Virus record (IMG/VR): IMGVR_UViG_3300019360_000279
Location: 1 to 37,934 of that record
Direction: 5' to 3' (one strand)
From: a virus
DNA length: 37,934 nt
A program made the position numbers and the translations under genes. The notes beneath the pieces were generated by a model. It worked only from the letters and a program-made list of their open reading frames with translations, did no database searches and had not been told where the DNA came from. Below, piece by piece: positions 924-37,934 of this stretch (positions are counted from its first letter, which is position 1; the number at the start of each line of letters is the position of its first letter).

Positions 924-2177
924 CTAAGTCAATGTCACCTTTTTAATCGTGCCAGAATCGTTATAAGCCAGATATACGCTACCCCCGCTTGTATCTTTGT
1001 GAATGCCCCAATCCTTGTTTGCCGGTAACTGTGTTGTTGTTGGAGCGACTGTTGAAGCCGTGTAACCAACAAATCTTGCGCCACCCACGAACGTCACATA
1101 ACCCGTTGCCGCCGCAATGAACAATGTCATTCCAATTGATAAACTAGAAAACGTGAAATCATAGTTAGCTCCGCCTGTTCCGAGAATGAAGTTACTTGAG
1201 CCTGATTGATAGTAACCAAAACGAGCATCGCCCAGAAACAAACCTTTGTCATTGCCGATTGTGAGAGTGCCTCCAAACACAACATCGCTTCCAGAGACGC
1301 TAGAACCTGAAATGCCTCCAAAGGTTGAACCGTCAACTCTATATTGGAGTTGCGAGCCAGAGCCGCCCGGCGAACCGCCACCACCGCCACCTGTCGCACT
1401 CAACACCCCGCCCGACAAAGACAAGCCAGAGCCTATTGAAATCTCTTCGACATCGCCGGAACTTGCCGTACTACGCCCCAACAAACGAGCCGTAGCTATA
1501 TTTTGGAGTTTCGCAAAAGTGACCGCATCGCCATCAATATCGCCCGTTGCGATGGATGATTTAACAGCAAGTGCGCCAAGTCCTAAAGTTGTTCTTTGAG
1601 CCGCCGCATCAGCATCATCAATCAAAGCCCGCCCTGCGGCTGTACAAGTGATTTCCTCAATGTCACCCGCGCCCGCCGTGCTACGTCCCAGCAATTTGTC
1701 TGTGGCTGAGACGTTTTGAATCTTCGCGTAAGTGATGCCATCGTTTGCGATGTCAACATCATAGTTACCACCTGCGCCGCCATCGGTGACAGAAAAGCGT
1801 GAACCGTTGAAAGCGAGAACTCTTTCAGCCGTTAAGGTCGCATCCGTAGCAAGAGTTAAGTATTGCGCTGTTGTTGGCGCACCACCACCACCACCGGACG
1901 CTGTGATTGAGCCGCCTGAGATTGATAAGCCAGAGCCAATCGTCAGCCATTCAAACTGATTTGTCGTGTTGTTCCAATAGAGAATCTTATCTGCGTTCGG
2001 GTCTGTCAGAGCGGCGATTTGGTCAAGAAAACTATCCCAAGCTTGCGTTTCAGAGCCAAGCTTCAAGATATTTGTTTTACTTGCCTTTTTTGTTACGCCA
2101 CCTTCAACGACCGGAATCATCACTGAACCGTTAGGATTAGTAGTTTCCGTTAGTGCGGAAATTTTTGTATCAGCCAT
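924..2177 (-). CDS. Phage tail fibre protein
   Basis: The N-terminus MADTKISALTETTNP followed by a PVVEGGVTKK segment is the common start of many phage tail fibre proteins. The middle holds two diverged copies of a module (AKIQNVSATDKLLGRSTAG near residue 155 and AKLQNIATARLLGRSTASSG near 222), separated by glycine-rich linkers (GGGGGG), typical of a repetitive shaft. The C-terminus (NKDWGIHKDTSGGSVYLAYN) also recurs in phage fibres. It should trimerise and contact the host surface. The start has GGAGTAAACGAAA upstream. Its place next to tail tip genes and the prophage end matches fibre genes in other transposable phages. No receptor is predictable. Confidence 0.85.
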   Translation of the reverse strand: MADTKISALTETTNPNGSVMIPVVEGGVTKKASKTNILKLGSETQAWDSFLDQIAALTDPNADKILYWNNTTNQFEWLTIGSGLSISGGSITASGGGGGAPTTAQYLTLATDATLTAERVLAFNGSRFSVTDGGAGGNYDVDIANDGITYAKIQNVSATDKLLGRSTAGAGDIEEITCTAAGRALIDDADAAAQRTTLGLGALAVKSSIATGDIDGDAVTFAKLQNIATARLLGRSTASSGDVEEISIGSGLSLSGGVLSATGGGGGGSPGGSGSQLQYRVDGSTFGGISGSSVSGSDVVFGGTLTIGNDKGLFLGDARFGYYQSGSSNFILGTGGANYDFTFSSLSIGMTLFIAAATGYVTFVGGARFVGYTASTVAPTTTQLPANKDWGIHKDTSGGSVYLAYNDSGTIKKVTLT

Positions 2178-2183
2178 TTTCGT

Positions 2184-3392
2184 TTACTCCAAAATCAAAT
2201 AATCACCCGATTCTGTTTGCAGATAATCATCGTTTTCAGCCAACAACTTACTTGAAAGCGACGGTGCTACGCCTGTGTCCAACGTCCCATCTTCTTCGTA
2301 TTGCTTCACACGCACAGACATATCGAAAAGATTCGGCGCAAGTGTTCTGTCTGAAAGTTCGCTGTCAAAACAGACAAGCGTTTCGACATTTCGTTCTTTG
2401 TCATTCAGATAAAACGGAATGTCGAATTTATGAAAACGCCGCAAAGCTTTGACGGTATCAAAAGCAGATAATCGCCGTGCTTGAAAGACCAAGCCCCATT
2501 TCTGCAACGTCTCGCTCAAATAACGAACCACACGGTCTTTGGGGCGCATTCCTTCGGCTTCCGAAATTTCGACTTCCTCGCTCTCGCTATGTTCGGTTTG
2601 CCTATCGAAATGAATCGGCATGATTGCCGTTGTCTTCAAAACTTCCATGTCAAACGCAGTACCACCAGACCAAAAACGTATGCCTTCAAGTTTTCCGTTT
2701 TGCTCATAAAAGCCAGCTATCGGATAAAGCGGATAGTTCAGAGTCGGACTAACAATTTCATAAAACAAAACACCGTTCTTTCTGCATCGGACTTTGCCGT
2801 TTTCAATAGACAGGCGAAAGATGTCTCCATCTTTGTAGGTGAATCCTCCGCCAGCCCAAGCCCCTAACACTGGCGAGCCGTTGACCCAAATTGAACCCCC
2901 GCTCGCTTGCGCTAAAACGAGCATAAAGTCAGCATTTGAGTTTGCCCAATAATATGAGTGTGTGCCACCTGATAACCCTATTCCGCGTGCATAAAAGTTG
3001 CCCGCTTGTGACGCCACAACTTCAATAAAACAATCTCCGCTTGTACAAGATTGACTCCCGACTGCTCCCTTCTCACTCGCAGTTGCTCCCGTATATTCAA
3101 GGTCGTTGTTGCCTAGTATAGTGACGCCCGCAGAAATGCTTGTCCATGTTGGTTTGACTACATCAAAAACACGGATGATTGCATCAGCAGAACTAAGAAG
3201 AACATCATGCGTTTGATTGAATGCTGAGAAATCAACTGATAGCCCCTCGCGTGCTGAAAACAACCCAGCCCAGCCTTGCAAGCCCACACTATCCCAAAGG
3301 GCAATGTTCGTGATGCCAGACACGCTGTAAGATGGTAACGGCGTTGTTCCGTATTTGTGGTTACTTTTAGTTGCTGTAATCGTTGGCGGCAT
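2184..3392 (-). CDS. Tail-associated protein with SPRY/lectin-like region
   Basis: This 402-residue protein lies between the tail hub and the fibre, so a role in the distal tail is likely. Residues about 120-240 read like a SPRY or concanavalin-like beta sandwich: small hydrophobic strands with NGSPVL, FRLSIENGKVRCRKNGVLFY and PIAGFYEQNGKLEGIRFW. The last 20 residues (LLAENDDYLQTESGDYLILE) form a short acidic motif often seen at the end of phage tail proteins. Residues about 250-380 form a separate compact domain rich in charged residues. The assignment is by context and fold impression; no enzymatic residues are seen. Confidence 0.7.
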   Translation of the reverse strand: MPPTITATKSNHKYGTTPLPSYSVSGITNIALWDSVGLQGWAGLFSAREGLSVDFSAFNQTHDVLLSSADAIIRVFDVVKPTWTSISAGVTILGNNDLEYTGATASEKGAVGSQSCTSGDCFIEVVASQAGNFYARGIGLSGGTHSYYWANSNADFMLVLAQASGGSIWVNGSPVLGAWAGGGFTYKDGDIFRLSIENGKVRCRKNGVLFYEIVSPTLNYPLYPIAGFYEQNGKLEGIRFWSGGTAFDMEVLKTTAIMPIHFDRQTEHSESEEVEISEAEGMRPKDRVVRYLSETLQKWGLVFQARRLSAFDTVKALRRFHKFDIPFYLNDKERNVETLVCFDSELSDRTLAPNLFDMSVRVKQYEEDGTLDTGVAPSLSSKLLAENDDYLQTESGDYLILE

Positions 3393-17894: not shown

Positions 17895-18158
17895 CTAAGC
17901 GGCTATCGGTTGTTTCGTAATCTCTGTTTTAATCCGTGCAAGCAATCCCTGACGAAATGCTTTCTCGCTTCCTAACAGGTCAAAGAATTCTTTATCGGTT
18001 TTATCATCGGGAACGATAAATGACATCGTCAGATTATCATCCGATTCAATTTCGTGTGTGCCGTATTTAATCACACGCTGTTGCGTTGTTCCGTTTTCAG
18101 AAAACGTAACATCAAAGCGGTTGTTACCAAGCGATTTAATTTTGAGAAGCTTTATCAT
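17895..18158 (-). CDS. Small protein coupled to the MuF-peptidase gene; candidate immunity protein
   Basis: This is an 87-residue protein of unknown family. It has an N-terminal beta-rich part (LLKIKSLGNNRFDVTFSENG), a hydrophobic strand (LTMSFIVPDD) and a helical C-terminus (KAFRQGLLARIKTEITK). The gene overlaps the end of the MuF-C39-like gene by ATGA and is followed by a strong terminator, so the two are co-translated and end a transcription unit. In MuF polymorphic toxins the immunity gene usually lies just downstream of the toxin, and this gene has the right size and place. It may equally be an ordinary small head protein; the function is inference. Confidence 0.75.
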   Translation of the reverse strand: MIKLLKIKSLGNNRFDVTFSENGTTQQRVIKYGTHEIESDDNLTMSFIVPDDKTDKEFFDLLGSEKAFRQGLLARIKTEITKQPIAA

Positions 18159-19651
18159 TTTTTCTTTCGTCTTAAAACAAACTCACTCAAAATCTTTAGA
18201 AGTTCTGTTGCTTCCATTTTATATGTTGTTTTGTCAAACGGGTCTTTGATGATTATCAAATCATTCTCGTCAACCCCGTCAATCAAAACAGCGTGTCCAA
18301 TTGCCGAGCCTTTTCTTAAAAACACGCCCCATACTTTTGTGGTCTTACTGATACCTATGATGCGTTGTTCATCATCGTCAAAAAATCCACCTATCCATTC
18401 TACATCTTTTTTCGTTTCTTTGGTATTCAAAAAATCAGAAAGATACGCGGAGTTTGCCCAATCGCCAATGTTATCCAAAATCTCTTGTTGGTTTGTTTTT
18501 AATCCGTAGTGTTTAGCCAGCATCTCACCAATTGCCGAAACACAAGAAGCATCATTGATTTGTTTGGTAATTGAAGCGTCAAACTTCTCGTCAATCTTCT
18601 GCCAATCTCCCAACGAGCCAAATTTAGAAACCCGCGTCTTCATCGCTTTTGAGATGGGGTCAATTTTCTTTTTAGACAAAATCTCCGCCAAAGGTCTGCG
18701 AGTCACTGCCTTTCCGAACCTCTTATCAGTTCTGAACATGACAAAATCATCTAAGGCTAAGTCGCCGTTTTTGTAATGCGGAAATGCCTCTTTGCCTAAA
18801 ATCTTTTCTTTTGTGGCGTCGTCTTGACGTTCAAACCAATCACGCCCCAAGTTGCGTTTCAACTCGCGTCCGGGCATGACGCTAATCATTGTGCATCTGC
18901 AATTGATATGTTGAGGAAAAGGTTCATCAATCGGAAATCGCTTGCCGTCCATAGACAAACATAAAGGACAAGTCCGCGCAGATTTGGAAGCAACCCATTC
19001 CCATTGTTTTATGTTGTTCTCTTTGAAAATTTCCCGCGTCGTATCTCTGCGAACGCGGTTGACTTCCGTTCGTGCGACTGACAAAGCACGGCTTTTAGTG
19101 ATGCCGCCCGTGTCTTGAAGGCGTTTTGCTATGCTCTTAAAATCAGTTCCTAGTGCAACTGCTTTTATAACTTCCTCTTGAATTTTATCAATAACAACCG
19201 GAGCCAGCGTCTGTTCAAAATACTCAATAAGTGGCGAGCCGTCGCCCATGAAACCAACTGCGTTTTCAATCGCACGTTTTGGCAAACTTGCACCGATGTT
19301 GAGTTTTGCGCCTTGCAGTTTTGAAATCTCTTTTGCTTGAGTGATAGCTAAATCTATTGCAGTTGCTTGTTCGCGTTCAATGACAGGAATTATTTTGCCG
19401 CCAAATTTCACCACTTCTTTTTCGACATCCTCAAGCAAAGACGCCAGACGTTGCTTTTGAAAAATCCACGACGGCGAAATCTCTTTTCCATCTTTAATTG
19501 CCTCTTCTATCTGTTTCTGAAATTTAAGGTAAGATTTTTGTAACTCTTTTTCGATTGAACGATATGCCTTGAGAATGTCACGAAAAGTTTGTTCTTCTCG
19601 CTTTATAATACTTGCACGGTGTTTTTTGAGATAATCATCAAGGACTGACAT
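18155..19651 (-). CDS. MuF-type head morphogenesis protein fused to a C39/papain-like cysteine peptidase domain
   Basis: Residues about 150-265 are the MuF/SPP1 gp7 domain: SVARTEVNRVRRDTTREIF, then TCPLC (C228, C231) and PQHINCRC (H248, C251, C253). Such minor head proteins bind the portal and may enter the host with DNA. The 498-residue protein continues well beyond this. Residues about 355-490 look like a C39/papain-fold peptidase: QINDASCVSAIGEML puts a possible nucleophile C370 six residues after Q364, the oxyanion-hole spacing of C39 enzymes; GHAVLIDGV supplies H453; IIIKDPFD supplies D470. MuF proteins with C-terminal toxin domains are known in temperate phages. The target is unknown; a proteolytic role in the capsid is the alternative. 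Confidence 0.87.
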   Translation of the reverse strand: MSVLDDYLKKHRASIIKREEQTFRDILKAYRSIEKELQKSYLKFQKQIEEAIKDGKEISPSWIFQKQRLASLLEDVEKEVVKFGGKIIPVIEREQATAIDLAITQAKEISKLQGAKLNIGASLPKRAIENAVGFMGDGSPLIEYFEQTLAPVVIDKIQEEVIKAVALGTDFKSIAKRLQDTGGITKSRALSVARTEVNRVRRDTTREIFKENNIKQWEWVASKSARTCPLCLSMDGKRFPIDEPFPQHINCRCTMISVMPGRELKRNLGRDWFERQDDATKEKILGKEAFPHYKNGDLALDDFVMFRTDKRFGKAVTRRPLAEILSKKKIDPISKAMKTRVSKFGSLGDWQKIDEKFDASITKQINDASCVSAIGEMLAKHYGLKTNQQEILDNIGDWANSAYLSDFLNTKETKKDVEWIGGFFDDDEQRIIGISKTTKVWGVFLRKGSAIGHAVLIDGVDENDLIIIKDPFDKTTYKMEATELLKILSEFVLRRKKK

Positions 19652-31976: not shown

Positions 31977-32177
31977 ATGATAGACGACAGAATCAATGAA
32001 CTGACTGATGACGCAATCGCAATTGTCAGCGAAGCCCTAGAGTCGCCAGACCCATATACGAAATTGAGTTCAGCAATTCAGTTTTTGCAGACAATTCTTA
32101 TTGTCACTCATAGCGAACGCCTAAAAGCGCAAGACCGATGGGACAACACCATCGTTATTAAAAAGGAGAAACAATGA
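31977..32177 (+). CDS. Small hypothetical early protein
   Basis: 66 residues from ATG 31977, chosen because AAGGAG lies six bases upstream; the ATG at 31971 would be too close to it. Helical, acidic at the N-terminus (MIDDRINELTDDAIAIVSEA) and basic at the end (NTIVIKKEKQ). It overlaps the next gene's start by four bases. Function unknown. Confidence 0.7.
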   Translation: MIDDRINELTDDAIAIVSEALESPDPYTKLSSAIQFLQTILIVTHSERLKAQDRWDNTIVIKKEKQ

Positions 32178-32887
32178 CACCAGCAACACAAATAACCGAG
32201 CTAAAAAATAACTCGGTCATCATGGGTAACGAACTAACAAGGTTACATTCTAAGACAACATTGATTGAAGAATTATGTAGAGAATTTGACCTGCAACCTG
32301 AACAAATCTTTGTCACAAAACAAGGTGATTTGTTCTTTGATTACGAGGCTCTTTGCGTGCTTGCAAACGCACTTGGAACTTTCCCTGATATTTCAGTCGA
32401 AGCTATTGAAACAAACAAAGATGGTCTGATTACGGCTCAGGCATCCGTGATGCTTGAAAGCGGTCATATTCGCAGAAGTTTTGACACTGTTTTAGTTGGA
32501 GATATTAAACCGGACGGGAGCAAGATTTTGGACTTTCGTGAAGCGGTTTCTCTAGTTCGCGCTCGCGCACTTCGTGGCGCACTTCGCGCCGCTGGATTCG
32601 ACCCTGTTAAAGCGTACAACAAAAGCAAAAACGGAGAACAACCAGAACTTGAAATAGGTTATGAAAACACTTGGCAGAAGATGAATTCAGAGGCTCATGC
32701 GATAGGGCAAAAACTCGGCTACATCATCAAGCATCCGGGCGTCCCGCAATTAGACAAGTTGAAATGGTATCGCTTAATGCGAAACATTTTCCCGAATGTT
32801 CAAACAAGCAAAGATTTGAGCGAAGTGCAAATGTCGCAATGGCTCAACACACTTCGTGGTTTAGACCGGGCAACCAACCCATATTAA
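32174..32887 (+). CDS. Hypothetical early protein, possibly replication/recombination related
   Basis: A 237-residue protein with AGGAGAAACA before its ATG. The core has a beta-rich half (FVTKQGDLFFDYEALCVLAN, ITAQASVMLESGHIRRSFDT) followed by a helix FREAVSLVRARALRGALRAA and GFDPVKAY. That helix resembles the 'TRA.kRALR...' helix of phage single-strand-annealing proteins (Rad52/Sak/Erf-like), but the match is loose. The C-terminal segment (LDKLKWYRLMRNIFP) is basic. It ends seven bases before a strong terminator, making it the last gene before the transposase. Recombination function is only a hint. Confidence 0.75.
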   Translation: MTPATQITELKNNSVIMGNELTRLHSKTTLIEELCREFDLQPEQIFVTKQGDLFFDYEALCVLANALGTFPDISVEAIETNKDGLITAQASVMLESGHIRRSFDTVLVGDIKPDGSKILDFREAVSLVRARALRGALRAAGFDPVKAYNKSKNGEQPELEIGYENTWQKMNSEAHAIGQKLGYIIKHPGVPQLDKLKWYRLMRNIFPNVQTSKDLSEVQMSQWLNTLRGLDRATNPY

Positions 32888-32893
32888 CAAACC

Positions 32894-32934
32894 AAAAGGC
32901 AGATGCGATTTCAGCCTACGCATCTGCCTTTTTT
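32894..32934 (+). terminator. Rho-independent terminator ahead of the transposase gene
   Basis: GGCAGATGCG (32898-32907) pairs perfectly with CGCATCTGCC (32919-32928) around an 11-base loop, extended by four A-T pairs, and is followed by six T (32929-32934). It is a strong intrinsic terminator just 10-22 bp before the transposase start codons, so transposase expression from the early operon would need read-through or antitermination, or an undetected promoter. Confidence 0.9.
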
Positions 32935-32955
32935 CTAATCGCAATGGAAAATCCG

Positions 32956-34662
32956 ATGAGAATACTTGGCGAGAATACCATCAAAGAAATCCGTGAGTCT
33001 ATGCGTGGACTCAACGGAACAGCTGCCAGCGCAGAGGCTGAACGTCTGGCAAAACTTTTCAACATTTCAATTTCCCGAATCTACGAAATAACAAAAGACC
33101 TTCGACCCAAACGAAAACCACGCGCAGACAAAGGCAAACGGATTGCTGATTTAATGAGCGATGATGTTCTAAAACAAATGGCTTCTTGGGTCGTCACTTA
33201 TGACATTACACCAGCAGACGCTTTTGAAACTGCCCGTCAACGAGGTCTGCAAATCCCTGTCGAACTGCCGACGTTTCAGCGTTATATGCGCGAACATGAT
33301 TTGAATAAAAAGGCTCGTCGCAATCCGCAAACTCCACACCGCACATTTGAAGCCTCTGCGCCTGGCGAACTTTTTCAATTCGATATTTCAGGGTCAAAAC
33401 AACGATGGTACGACCTAAAAACAAGAAAGATTTTGACAGTCTCTGAGTTGGAAGTTTCGGAAAACCACCCGAACACAAAAGCCACTCGCGTCAAGGTCTG
33501 GCGATTCAAACTTATTGATGATTTTTCGCGGCGCGTTTTCACACGCTACTACGCGGTTGATAAGGCGAATTCAAGCCATGTAATTGACTTCCTACTTCAA
33601 GCATATTCTGAAATCGGTGTTCCTCTTAATCTCTACACAGACAACGATTCAATCATCAAATTTGGACGCAATGCAGACGCGACAAAGGTAATTGATAAAG
33701 CACTTTCAGAGATTGGAGGCTACAATGTTTTTCACCACTTGCCCGGCAATGCTCGCGCAACAGGAAAGATTGAGCGTCAGCACCAAAACAGCGAGGCAGT
33801 AGAAAAGCTTATAGGATTGTTTCTTGACGAAGGACGAATACTTACGCTTGAAGACTTGCAAACTTTCGCCCGCAACACAGACACCCGCTATAACAGCACA
33901 CGACACCGGACAACTGGCGAAACACCTATGGCTCGCTGGCAATCAAAGCTACACACAGTCCGCATGGTTGATTATCAAATCTTGAAATCAGCGTTTCTGG
34001 CTGACTCGTTTGACATCACGTTGAAAGGTGATTTGACCTTTGAACTTAAAGGCAAAACTTATCAATTACCGACTGACCAAGTCTTTCAAGATTTGTTGCC
34101 GCGCCAAGCAATCACAAAGAAAAAACTCAAAGTAATCTTTGCCGATGACACAGAGTTTTACACTTTCATTGATTTTGATTTGAACGAATATGACATTCAG
34201 AAATCGCTTGCCGTTTCTGATGTCGCTGGCGACTTCAAATCAACTGCGTTTTCGCGTGGAGAACGCAACCGGAAAGAACTCAAACAGTTTGCAAAAGAGA
34301 ATGCGAAACAAGAGCGCGAGCGTAAACAGCAAGGGATTATGCCCGCGCCTATTCCATACTTCGACAGCGATGTAGTTGTTGAAAAAACAAACACAATTCA
34401 GTTTCCGAAACCGACTGTGGACGTAACGCCGCAAATCATCGAACACGCCCCCATGGACCCAAGAGAGAAAGAAATCTATTCGTCAAAGATTGGATTTTGG
34501 GATGCTGTGCGCGAGTACGAATCGCAGTTCAAGCAGATTGCAGAGTGCAAAGATTTTCTTGATTCGCTGTTTGCGAATCGTGACGAAGTTTTACCCAAGT
34601 CTGAGATTGAAGACGCGCTCAAGCTTGGGATTCAACAATCGCGTCTGCGTTTAGCGAAGTGA
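32956..34662 (+). CDS. MuA-like DDE transposase
   Basis: This protein has 568 residues from ATG 32956 (GGA seven bases upstream; ATG 32944 adds four residues). An N-terminal helix-turn-helix (AERLAKLFNISISRIYEITK) should bind the phage ends. The RNase H-like catalytic core carries D143 (ELFQFDISGS), D229 (LYTDND) and E273 (TGKIERQHQN), the DDE triad. After the core come a beta-barrel-like segment (FDITLKGDLTFELKGKTYQL) and a charged C-terminal tail, where MuA contacts its ATPase. Length is close to MuA (663). It joins phage ends to target DNA with a short duplication. The following gene is the ATPase partner. The frame is open a further 285 bp upstream, but that overlaps the preceding gene and a terminator. 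Confidence 0.95.
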   Translation: MRILGENTIKEIRESMRGLNGTAASAEAERLAKLFNISISRIYEITKDLRPKRKPRADKGKRIADLMSDDVLKQMASWVVTYDITPADAFETARQRGLQIPVELPTFQRYMREHDLNKKARRNPQTPHRTFEASAPGELFQFDISGSKQRWYDLKTRKILTVSELEVSENHPNTKATRVKVWRFKLIDDFSRRVFTRYYAVDKANSSHVIDFLLQAYSEIGVPLNLYTDNDSIIKFGRNADATKVIDKALSEIGGYNVFHHLPGNARATGKIERQHQNSEAVEKLIGLFLDEGRILTLEDLQTFARNTDTRYNSTRHRTTGETPMARWQSKLHTVRMVDYQILKSAFLADSFDITLKGDLTFELKGKTYQLPTDQVFQDLLPRQAITKKKLKVIFADDTEFYTFIDFDLNEYDIQKSLAVSDVAGDFKSTAFSRGERNRKELKQFAKENAKQERERKQQGIMPAPIPYFDSDVVVEKTNTIQFPKPTVDVTPQIIEHAPMDPREKEIYSSKIGFWDAVREYESQFKQIAECKDFLDSLFANRDEVLPKSEIEDALKLGIQQSRLRLAK

Positions 34663-36238: not shown

Positions 36239-36493
36239 ATGCACAAAAAGAAAATCAACAAAATCTCGATTGATTTAACTGAACAACAGTTAGCGCAACT
36301 CCAACCAATTTTTGATTTAGCTGATGACGCATATTACAGCGGCAAAAAAGGAATAGTTCTTGGGCAAGCGTATGCTCCAGACGACACAGGAACTTCAAAC
36401 AAAGGCAAATTTGTCGTGGTGTTTTTTCCGAATGAATACGCAGAGAAATTGGTTGCAGTTATCAAAGACGCGAAGCTAGAGGAGATAAAATGA
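36239..36493 (+). CDS. Small hypothetical protein
   Basis: 84 residues from ATG 36239, chosen because GAGG lies eight bases upstream; the earlier ATG at 36233 is only two bases from it. Basic start (MHKKKINKISIDLTEQQLAQ), then FDLADDAYYSGKKGIVLGQA and a hydrophobic strand (KGKFVVVFFPNEYAEKL). Short single-domain soluble protein. It overlaps the next gene by four bases. Function unknown. Confidence 0.7.
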   Translation: MHKKKINKISIDLTEQQLAQLQPIFDLADDAYYSGKKGIVLGQAYAPDDTGTSNKGKFVVVFFPNEYAEKLVAVIKDAKLEEIK

Positions 36494-37185
36494 GCGACAC
36501 CTATTTTAGCGACATTGAATCTGCCTTTGTCCGCGCACGCGGCAAGCATTTGTTTTTACAAACAACCGACTTCGCTCTTGTTCAAACATGGCAAGAGCGG
36601 AGCATTCCGGTTCACGTTGTTCTTTCTTCGATTAACACAGTTTTCAAAAACTACAACGAGAACGAGAACGGTAAACCGAAACGTCTTATCAACTCTTTGA
36701 GTTATTGCACTCAAGAGGTTGAAGCGCAGTTCGCCTCGTGGTCAGAATCGCAGGTAGGAAAGAGCGAAACCTACGTGAGCAGCGATGCAGAAGAAGAGGC
36801 TTTTAACGACATCACTGTTAGGCAATTAACCGAGCGAATGAAGAAACTTGAAGCAATTCAGGAAACCGCGCCGGACAAACTTAGAGAGGCAATCGAACTC
36901 GTTGTTCCGTTGTTGTTCTCTGCCATCAAAGAGTTTGAGATTCACCAAGATTTACAACGACTTGAGGAAGAATTATCACATCTTGAATCACAGCTAAACG
37001 ACGCGATAGGGGCAAGCGTGTCAGGCAAAGAATATGCTGAATTAACAAAGACCCTTGAAAAAGAGTTAGGTGGTCTTTCACGAAATCTTAATAACGAAGT
37101 CTATATGCAAACTTTGAATAGTTTGCGTTTGAAGACACTGCGCGAACTCTACAACGTCCCGCGCCTTTCCCTATTTTATTTATGA
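36490..37185 (+). CDS. Hypothetical early protein, possibly DNA-replication related
   Basis: A 231-residue protein. Its N-terminal 90 residues (YFSDIESAFVRARGKHLFLQ, then DFALVQTWQERSIPVHVVLS and SINTVFKNYNEN, ending LINSLSYCTQEVEAQF) match a pattern I associate with uncharacterised proteins of Acidobacteriota and related bacteria, next to helicase-loader genes. The C-terminal half is a long coiled coil (QDLQRLEEELSHLESQLNDA). A good GGAG precedes ATG, and the last four bases overlap the methyltransferase start. The family link is from memory and unconfirmed. Confidence 0.7.
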   Translation: MSDTYFSDIESAFVRARGKHLFLQTTDFALVQTWQERSIPVHVVLSSINTVFKNYNENENGKPKRLINSLSYCTQEVEAQFASWSESQVGKSETYVSSDAEEEAFNDITVRQLTERMKKLEAIQETAPDKLREAIELVVPLLFSAIKEFEIHQDLQRLEEELSHLESQLNDAIGASVSGKEYAELTKTLEKELGGLSRNLNNEVYMQTLNSLRLKTLRELYNVPRLSLFYL

Positions 37186-37934
37186 CTTTCGGTTCGCTCT
37201 TTTCAGGCTTCGGCGGAATGGATTTAGGACTTGAACGCGCAGGAATGTCATGTCGTTGGCAAGTGGAAATAAACGATTTTGCGCGAGAGCAAATTTTAGA
37301 AACGCATTTTCCGAACACTAGGAAATATACAGATGTCAACACAGTTGGAAAACACAACCTTGACACAGTCGAACTTATTTGCGGAGGGTTTCCATGCCAA
37401 GACATCAGCCGCAACAATTCGCAGGGCAAAGGTCTTAAAGGTAATCGTAGCGGATTGTGGAGAGAGTTTTACAGAATCTTATGCGAGTTACGACCTCGCT
37501 ACGCACTCATTGAAAACTCATCAAATCTTGTTAATAGAGGATTGCCACAAATCCTCTCTAACCTTGCCGGAATCGGGTTTGATGCGGAGTGGATTTGTCT
37601 TCAAGCATCCGATTTCAATTATCCGCATGAGAGAAAAAGGCTTTTCATTGTTGCCTACCCTAACAACCTCAGATTGGCGCAAATCAAAGTATTCTCTGAA
37701 AATTTCTTTAAGCCAATTGAAAAGCAAAAGCACCCATTCAATTTTCTATTTATTGAAAATGTTGGGCGTTTCTATCCAGAAATCCCCTGCGATTATGGAA
37801 CAAATGATGGGCTTTCCAATCGGCTGGACAACAAAACACTTGAAGAAATCACACACGGATTAGGAAACGCAGTTGTCCCGGCAATTAGTGAGTTTATAGG
37901 CAAACAGATTTTAGAGTTTGACAGGCACTTATGA
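37182..37934 (+). CDS. DNA (cytosine-5) methyltransferase, compact phage type
   Basis: Methylates cytosine at C5, most likely protecting phage DNA from host restriction. Motif I GSLFSGFGGMD (4-14) binds AdoMet; motif IV GGFPCQDIS (69-77) has the catalytic C72; motif VI is ENS (111-113, usually ENV); motif VIII QASDFNYPHERKR (141-153) is a variant with HERKR; motif X is GNAVVP (228-233). At 250 residues it is shorter than most (about 300-400), and the target recognition region between VIII and X is only about 75 residues. The gene is ATGA-coupled to its upstream neighbour. A second long frame overlaps it in +1. Confidence 0.92.
   Translation: MTFGSLFSGFGGMDLGLERAGMSCRWQVEINDFAREQILETHFPNTRKYTDVNTVGKHNLDTVELICGGFPCQDISRNNSQGKGLKGNRSGLWREFYRILCELRPRYALIENSSNLVNRGLPQILSNLAGIGFDAEWICLQASDFNYPHERKRLFIVAYPNNLRLAQIKVFSENFFKPIEKQKHPFNFLFIENVGRFYPEIPCDYGTNDGLSNRLDNKTLEEITHGLGNAVVPAISEFIGKQILEFDRHL
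37333..37863 (+). CDS. Overprinted ORF inside the methyltransferase gene
   Basis: A 176-residue frame, offset +1, is fully contained in the methyltransferase gene. It begins with ATG preceded by AGGAAA at a suitable distance. Its text ('ADCGESFTESYASYDLATHS', LPESGLMRSGF, SLLPTLTTSDW, MMGFPIGWT) follows a pattern I recall from many phage proteins of the type 'SLLPTPTASD...EWMMGFPIGWT', usually annotated near or as methyltransferases. The methyltransferase frame is also clearly conserved over the same bases, so this may be true dual coding. It could instead be a conserved shadow caused by constraint on the main frame. Function unknown. Confidence 0.45.
   Translation: MSTQLENTTLTQSNLFAEGFHAKTSAATIRRAKVLKVIVADCGESFTESYASYDLATHSLKTHQILLIEDCHKSSLTLPESGLMRSGFVFKHPISIIRMREKGFSLLPTLTTSDWRKSKYSLKISLSQLKSKSTHSIFYLLKMLGVSIQKSPAIMEQMMGFPIGWTTKHLKKSHTD

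Follow-up and report, generated by a model that had tools for sequence, protein, structure and literature searches.

In ordinary C5-cytosine DNA methyltransferases (C5-MTases), the target recognition region and motif IX together form the DNA-binding small domain. M.EcoHK31I and the similar M.EaeI are made of two polypeptides. The small ORF of M.EcoHK31I encodes 176 aa and lies inside the large ORF in a different reading frame. The large subunit of M.EcoHK31I contains motifs I-VIII and X together with the predicted recognition domain, and the small subunit contains motif IX only; in M.AquI, two polypeptides also make up one C5-MTase, with the split located in the variable region after motif VIII and motifs IX and X carried by the second polypeptide (PMC3404938). 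A different kind of out-of-frame coding is represented by the ShiLan element, an HNH endonuclease encoded out of frame in a mycobacteriophage methylase (PMC11855218).

The DNA analyzed here (hereinafter the window; all 37,934 nucleotides of the IMG/VR record IMGVR_UViG_3300019360_000279) belongs to a Mu-like transposable phage that encodes a transposase (phrog_310), a MuB-like ATPase, a Mu F-like protein and a Rha regulator. The last gene of the window encodes a C5-MTase, here denoted alpha, and contains a long ORF in the +1 frame, denoted beta (Table 1). Comparative sequence analysis suggests that this locus encodes a two-polypeptide C5-MTase, in which alpha would be the catalytic subunit and the nested beta would carry the recognition region and motif IX; we assign this reading a probability of about 0.86. 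Because the start of alpha overlaps the upstream ORF by ATGA, these genes are probably translated from one mRNA. The stop codon of alpha coincides with the last bases of the record (37932-37934) and lies inside TTATGA, so that the ATGA might be shared with a following gene. Trimming of the record at the edge of a gene is likely. Elsewhere in the window, the Mu F-like protein (18155-19651) shows a weak C-terminal match to Peptidase_C39 (1e-4), an unusual pairing. In the region 32174-34662, the ORF 32174-32887 and the transposase (TTG 32671) overlap by 217 bases on the same strand, and the true start of the transposase is probably located further downstream than this TTG.

Table 1. Features of the alpha-beta locus (positions in the window) and of three loci with an alternative layout (positions in the respective loci).
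Feature	Position	Strand	Evidence
Alpha: main-frame C5-cytosine methyltransferase, 250 aa, motifs I-VIII and X, without motif IX	37182..37934	+	PF00145, phrog_363
Beta: +1-frame ORF, 176 aa, proposed second subunit	37333..37863	+	phrog_1008, +1-specific conservation, open-frame test
AGGA, Shine-Dalgarno-like, 9 bases 5' of the beta ATG	37320..37323	+	sequence
Alpha motif I (FGSLFSGFGGMDLGLE), alpha frame only	37188..37235	+	invariant columns; N/S upstream of the overlap
Alpha motif IV (GGFPCQD), catalytic Cys	37383..37403	+	sequence, invariant columns
First doubly constrained stretch: alpha codons 99-165 (motifs VI, VIII)	37476..37677	+	per-column and reverse tests, N/S
Variable zone (probable target recognition region), constrained in the beta frame only	37677..37773	+	N/S; low alpha pLDDT
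Beta motif IX (SPAIMEQMMGFPIGWT) in +1; the alpha frame reads PCDYGTNDGLSNRLD	37783..37830	+	z up to 60; motif-IX profile
Alpha motif X (LGNAVVPA), alpha frame only	37860..37883	+	sequence; tail N/S
Upstream ORF, DnaD-like helicase loader	36490..37185	+	phrog_7498 6e-12; 4-base overlap (ATGA) with the alpha start
MeeZee (L165)	1293-2388		alpha ends after motif VIII, +1 with IX and X
Lilbooboo (L166) and phiBT1 (L167)	1290-2393		alpha ends after motif VIII, +1 with IX and X

Alpha matches PF00145 (7e-42, 144 bits against a cut-off of 22), with only positions 1-185 of the 324 profile positions covered, and phrog_363 (3e-56). These matches bear out an earlier note, made from the letters of this DNA, in which motifs I, IV, VI, VIII and X were recognized in the main frame. 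Compared with M.HhaI, alpha matches over motifs I-VIII and then over motif X only. The AlphaFold2 model of alpha (pLDDT 83) matches the M.HhaI structure 2uz4 (E 1e-16, 168 residues); it is confident over motifs I-VIII and poor at residues 181-219, with a pLDDT of 42-59 in the variable zone. The inner frame of 176 codons with its own AGGA and ATG, also pointed out in the earlier note, is present in the sequence (187 codons from stop to stop), and its product matches phrog_1008, which is labeled 'DNA methyltransferase' in PHROG (1e-12, 48.8 bits); profile and structure-database searches returned no Pfam, NCBIfam or PDB match for beta. Modeled alone with AlphaFold2, beta reaches a low-confidence pLDDT of 64, and the Foldseek comparison of this model with the PDB gave no match and is uninformative. 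The low pLDDT of beta alone fits a subunit that would fold together with its partner, although it does not amount to positive evidence.

Like M.EcoHK31I, the window locus encodes a large polypeptide with motifs I-VIII and X that lacks motif IX; motif IX resides on a small polypeptide, in the +1 frame, both in the window and in its relatives; and, again as in M.EcoHK31I, the large ORF contains the small one in another reading frame. The two differ in that selection across the window family places the recognition region in the small polypeptide, whereas the published prediction places it in the large one. M.EcoHK31I recognizes YGGCCR and has a partner restriction enzyme; no restriction enzyme or endonuclease gene was seen among the window neighbors examined, although the record ends at the alpha stop codon. 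Alpha shares its fold and motifs I-VIII with the single-chain C5-MTases M.HhaI and M.HaeIII, but these contain motif IX in the same chain, and such enzymes have no unusual +1 ORF. As in the ShiLan element, a second protein is encoded out of frame inside a phage methylase gene; however, the ShiLan HNH endonuclease is a mobile insertion in the third frame, whereas in the window it is the conserved sequence of the methylase itself that is dual coding.

When the codons of the window gene are shuffled synonymously 20,000 times with the main protein kept, the longest +1 ORF has a mean length of 78 codons and reaches at least 187 codons in only 17 (p ~8.5e-4), and none of the 23 other window genes tested contains a +1 ORF longer than 120 codons. 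A scan of IMG/VR with the main protein yielded at least 80 homologous loci; the locus counts given here are lower bounds from the matches listed and are no estimate of prevalence. Among the matches listed, the longest +1 ORF of 82 homologs averages 221 codons as compared to the expected 107; it exceeds its own expectation in all 82 and does so with p<0.05 in 73, and the homologs that exceed the expectation include genes of 41-50% GC. Nearly every homolog keeps its +1 frame open over the constrained stretch. Across 59 pairs, changes at main-frame positions 1, 2 and 3 number 934, 676 and 2459 upstream of the overlap vs 1102, 579 and 1393 within it (chi-square p 4e-40, the within-clade pairs being not fully independent). 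Third-position changes drop from 50 upstream to 4 in the overlap for the pair L050/L080, from 54 to 7 for L294/L295, and from 21-24 to 2-3 for the mycobacteriophage pairs. The openness of the +1 frame and the suppression of third-position change in the overlap support the dual-coding reading put forward in the earlier note. The same note had set two observations against its own reading. Stop codons in the +1 frame of relatives are not found at the family level, although homolog L052 has an apparent stop within the variable zone and some bacterial copies (e.g., L285) contain stops; and third-position variation of the kind left by main-frame selection only is absent from the family, with third positions in the overlap suppressed.

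Selection is distributed unevenly between the two frames along the gene. Among 66 diverged homologs (those with less than 70% main-protein identity among the matches listed), +1 conservation exceeds the synonymous-shuffle expectation mainly over main codons 99-217 and hardly elsewhere: columns with z>5 account for 51% of codons 99-165 and 75% of codons 198-217 but for 2% of codons 1-98 and 18% of the tail. The strongest +1 columns lie in four motifs: 'MGFPxGWT' (M and G), 'RSG' (G), 'LNP' (P) and 'KTSQ' (Q). The reverse test keeps the +1 protein constant, and main-frame conservation likewise exceeds expectation throughout. Because no close relative of the window was found among the matches listed (best main-frame identity 48%), substitution rates were taken from the family, as uncorrected nonsynonymous-to-synonymous (N/S) count ratios by zone in 23 closer pairs with bootstrap intervals. 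The N/S values of alpha and beta, respectively, are 0.12 and 0.82 upstream of the overlap, 0.21 and 0.44 in the first overlap block, 0.82 [0.63-1.02] and 0.35 [0.23-0.47] in the variable zone, 0.43 and 0.21 in the motif IX block, and 0.21 and 0.73 in the tail. Constraint along the gene is on alpha only, then on both frames, on beta only, on both again, and finally on alpha only. Within the first doubly constrained stretch, the window beta reads SYASYD...KTHQ...LPESGLMRSG...SLLPTLTTSDW. A few of its conserved sites differ from the consensus (LLPTL in place of LLPTP, SLKTH in place of SWKTS), a point that speaks against the two-polypeptide reading.

The claim of the earlier note that both frames are constrained over the same bases stands for codons 99-165 and for the motif IX block. 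It does not extend to the first ~48 codons of the +1 ORF, which are nearly free in +1, the +1 constraint setting in at about main codon 99 (37476) rather than at the beta ATG, nor to the variable zone. Since this zone, between motifs VIII and IX, is constrained in beta only, the target recognition region is probably read from beta, and this would explain the 'short, odd' recognition region of the main frame, in support of the suggestion in the note that its oddity results from dual coding.

Motif IX is missing from alpha and present in the +1 frame. The segment 'MMGFPIGWT' of the window +1 frame is motif IX. The comparative evidence bears out the inner frame seen in the earlier note as a coding sequence, although its identity as the carrier of this motif was not recognized there. 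A conventional motif-IX profile, built from enzymes with this motif in the main frame, scores 2.6 in the +1 frame of the window but -10 in frames 0 and +2, with a maximum of -3.4 for shuffles. Among the matches listed, +1 is the best-scoring frame for this profile in 212 of 242 loci, and of 232 such loci only 1 has the motif-IX pattern in its main frame. A textbook motif IX stands in the +1 frame of diverged relatives (from Clostridia, Pseudomonas and others), e.g., 'VRRMLPSECEQLQGFP' and, in L239, 'YVRRMLPSEYEQLQGFPKNWT'. Conversely, 15 control bacterial enzymes were found to carry motif IX in the main frame; the +1 ORF is ordinary in 13 of them (p 0.27-0.98), the exceptions being L256 (p 0.07) and L254 (p 0.015), and the +1 ORFs are also ordinary in three further full-length enzymes that the motif-IX pattern missed. 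In the loci without in-frame motif IX, nearly all +1 ORFs have p<=0.035; the exceptions, L283 and L284, have 68% GC, at which long ORFs are expected anyway.

Several other explanations of these patterns have to be considered. The +1 ORF could be a by-product of main-frame conservation and codon bias that yields no protein. Scored with a +1 profile built without it, the window reaches 168 bits as compared to a mean of 89 and a maximum of 112 for 50 shuffles, and when profiles built from one half of the homologs were scored on the other half, all 66 homologs exceeded all 50 of their own shuffles (means of 216 and 229 bits vs 110 and 115). About half of the profile score survives synonymous shuffling; the +1 frames thus owe roughly half of their resemblance to an echo of the main frame, but not the other half. 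It is this other half, together with ORF length, the per-column and substitution tests and the conventional-enzyme controls, that opposes a by-product, and with the synonymous-site tests refuting it at the family level, we give this explanation hardly any weight. A pure echo of main-frame conservation is ruled out by the cross-validated profile, and a chance ORF resulting from codon bias or GC content by the synonymous shuffles, the low-GC homologs and the conventional-enzyme controls. Dual coding might also be real, with beta being an independent accessory protein, such as an anti-restriction factor or a regulator, rather than a subunit. This would be compatible with the conserved N-terminal block of beta (SWKTSQ, WPRSGMMRNG, LLPTPTASD), which has no Pfam or PDB match, and with the short +1 ORFs, lacking motif IX, that are retained in certain enzymes whose main frame has this motif (L198, L211, L228), but appears unlikely given that beta holds a motif that alpha lacks, that the occurrence of beta goes together with the lack of motif IX in alpha, and that the +1 frame of phages phiBT1 and MeeZee carries motif X too. 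Because beta carries the C5-MTase motif IX that is absent from alpha, it is best read as a second subunit and not as an unrelated protein, most likely that of a two-polypeptide methyltransferase of the M.EcoHK31I kind.

Production of a separate beta can itself be questioned, inasmuch as the +1 constraint begins inside alpha without one conserved start-codon position. Programmed frameshifting into the +1 frame would yield a fusion of the N-terminal part of alpha with the C-terminal part of beta in place of a separate beta. However, alpha and beta are both constrained over codons 99-165, where a single shift loses one of them, and motif X would require a second shift. Moreover, each of the 66 homologs offers an ATG or GTG after its last +1 stop and ahead of the constrained core, and a Shine-Dalgarno-like word precedes a beta start in 61 of the 66. 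In four homologs (L013, L018, L044 and L060), the sole start is located 13 codons 5' of the core, right after a +1 stop, with AGGA or GGAGG upstream, and L078 has the same ATG with AAGGA. The double constraint over motifs VI and VIII, along with this start-codon evidence, favors internal initiation over frameshifting, which we regard as quite improbable.

Of 252 loci among the matches listed, 211 share one arrangement, in which alpha and motif X are read in frame 0 and the two beta blocks in +1. The layout is seen in at least hundreds of phage and bacterial loci, with beta usually unannotated; related loci in E. coli prophages and in Salmonella phage S9-5, for example, are annotated as a single DNA cytosine methyltransferase. 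No clear standalone beta was found away from a methyltransferase, the loci detected with the beta profile being almost all C5-MTases with beta in +1; a scan of viral contigs with the window beta alone retrieved zero relatives. In mycobacteriophage MeeZee (gp78, gp77) and in the Streptomyces phages Lilbooboo and phiBT1, the main frame stops right after motif VIII, and the +1 ORF holds motif IX and a motif X of its own in addition to the first beta block and the variable zone. These three are closer to M.AquI than the window is, but their halves overlap in different frames. In the phiBT1 record, only the first half is annotated, with no second ORF, and the methylase bears the note 'may be inactive'. 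In L283 (Kibdelosporangium), motif IX is in frame with alpha and the first beta block is in +1, possibly an intermediate layout. The layout of L283, together with that of the three phages, indicates that the same parts exist in several frame arrangements.

Several additional variants were observed. In mycobacteriophage Llama (L168 1501-2260), the alpha frame is broken at about codon 124 and continued in +1, with the halves annotated as two 'DNA methylase' genes (74 and 75), and several relatives show the same two-piece match. In the E. coli prophage copy PCP07014 (L303 901-1662), which is marked as a pseudogene, both frames stop at about the same place (alpha codon ~122). The +1 ORFs of L198, L211 and L228, over approximately alpha codons 39-224, belong to a distinct family (KYFLSPKACAGILRRAEKRGK) and are maybe a second, separate kind of overlap.

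Under the two-polypeptide reading, alpha would supply the catalytic and cofactor-binding domain (motifs I-VIII) as well as motif X, and beta, nested in alpha in the +1 frame, would supply the target recognition region and motif IX. Beta would probably be initiated independently at the internal ATG (37333, with AGGA upstream) on the same mRNA as alpha, and is predicted to pair with alpha into one active enzyme, for the activity of which both polypeptides would be needed. Presumably, in line with what is generally known of phage methyltransferases, the role of the locus is to methylate the phage's own DNA against host restriction. The precedent of two-polypeptide C5-MTases is old; the breadth of the family and the location of the recognition region in beta appear to be new, and no description of the nested family in phages was found in the literature searched, which covered few subscription papers.

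More broadly, the sequence comparisons make it reasonably probable that a large, mostly unannotated class of phage and bacterial C5-MTases has its DNA-recognition half in the +1 frame inside the catalytic gene, such that the same bases would encode part of the recognition subunit as well as catalytic motifs VI and VIII, while specificity would evolve where the catalytic subunit can vary almost freely. Because annotation pipelines usually call one frame only, the 'DNA cytosine methyltransferases' of phages and prophages probably include hundreds of catalytic halves whose partner went unrecorded. If this is true, alpha cloned alone is likely to be a dead enzyme, a prediction to be compared with the 'may be inactive' remark on the phiBT1 copy. 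The family provides a large natural case of long same-strand dual coding in which selection can be resolved by zone for each of the two frames, and thus lends itself to direct tests of how overlapping genes split functions. The overlooked subunit itself becomes testable, including whether specificity follows the variable region of beta.
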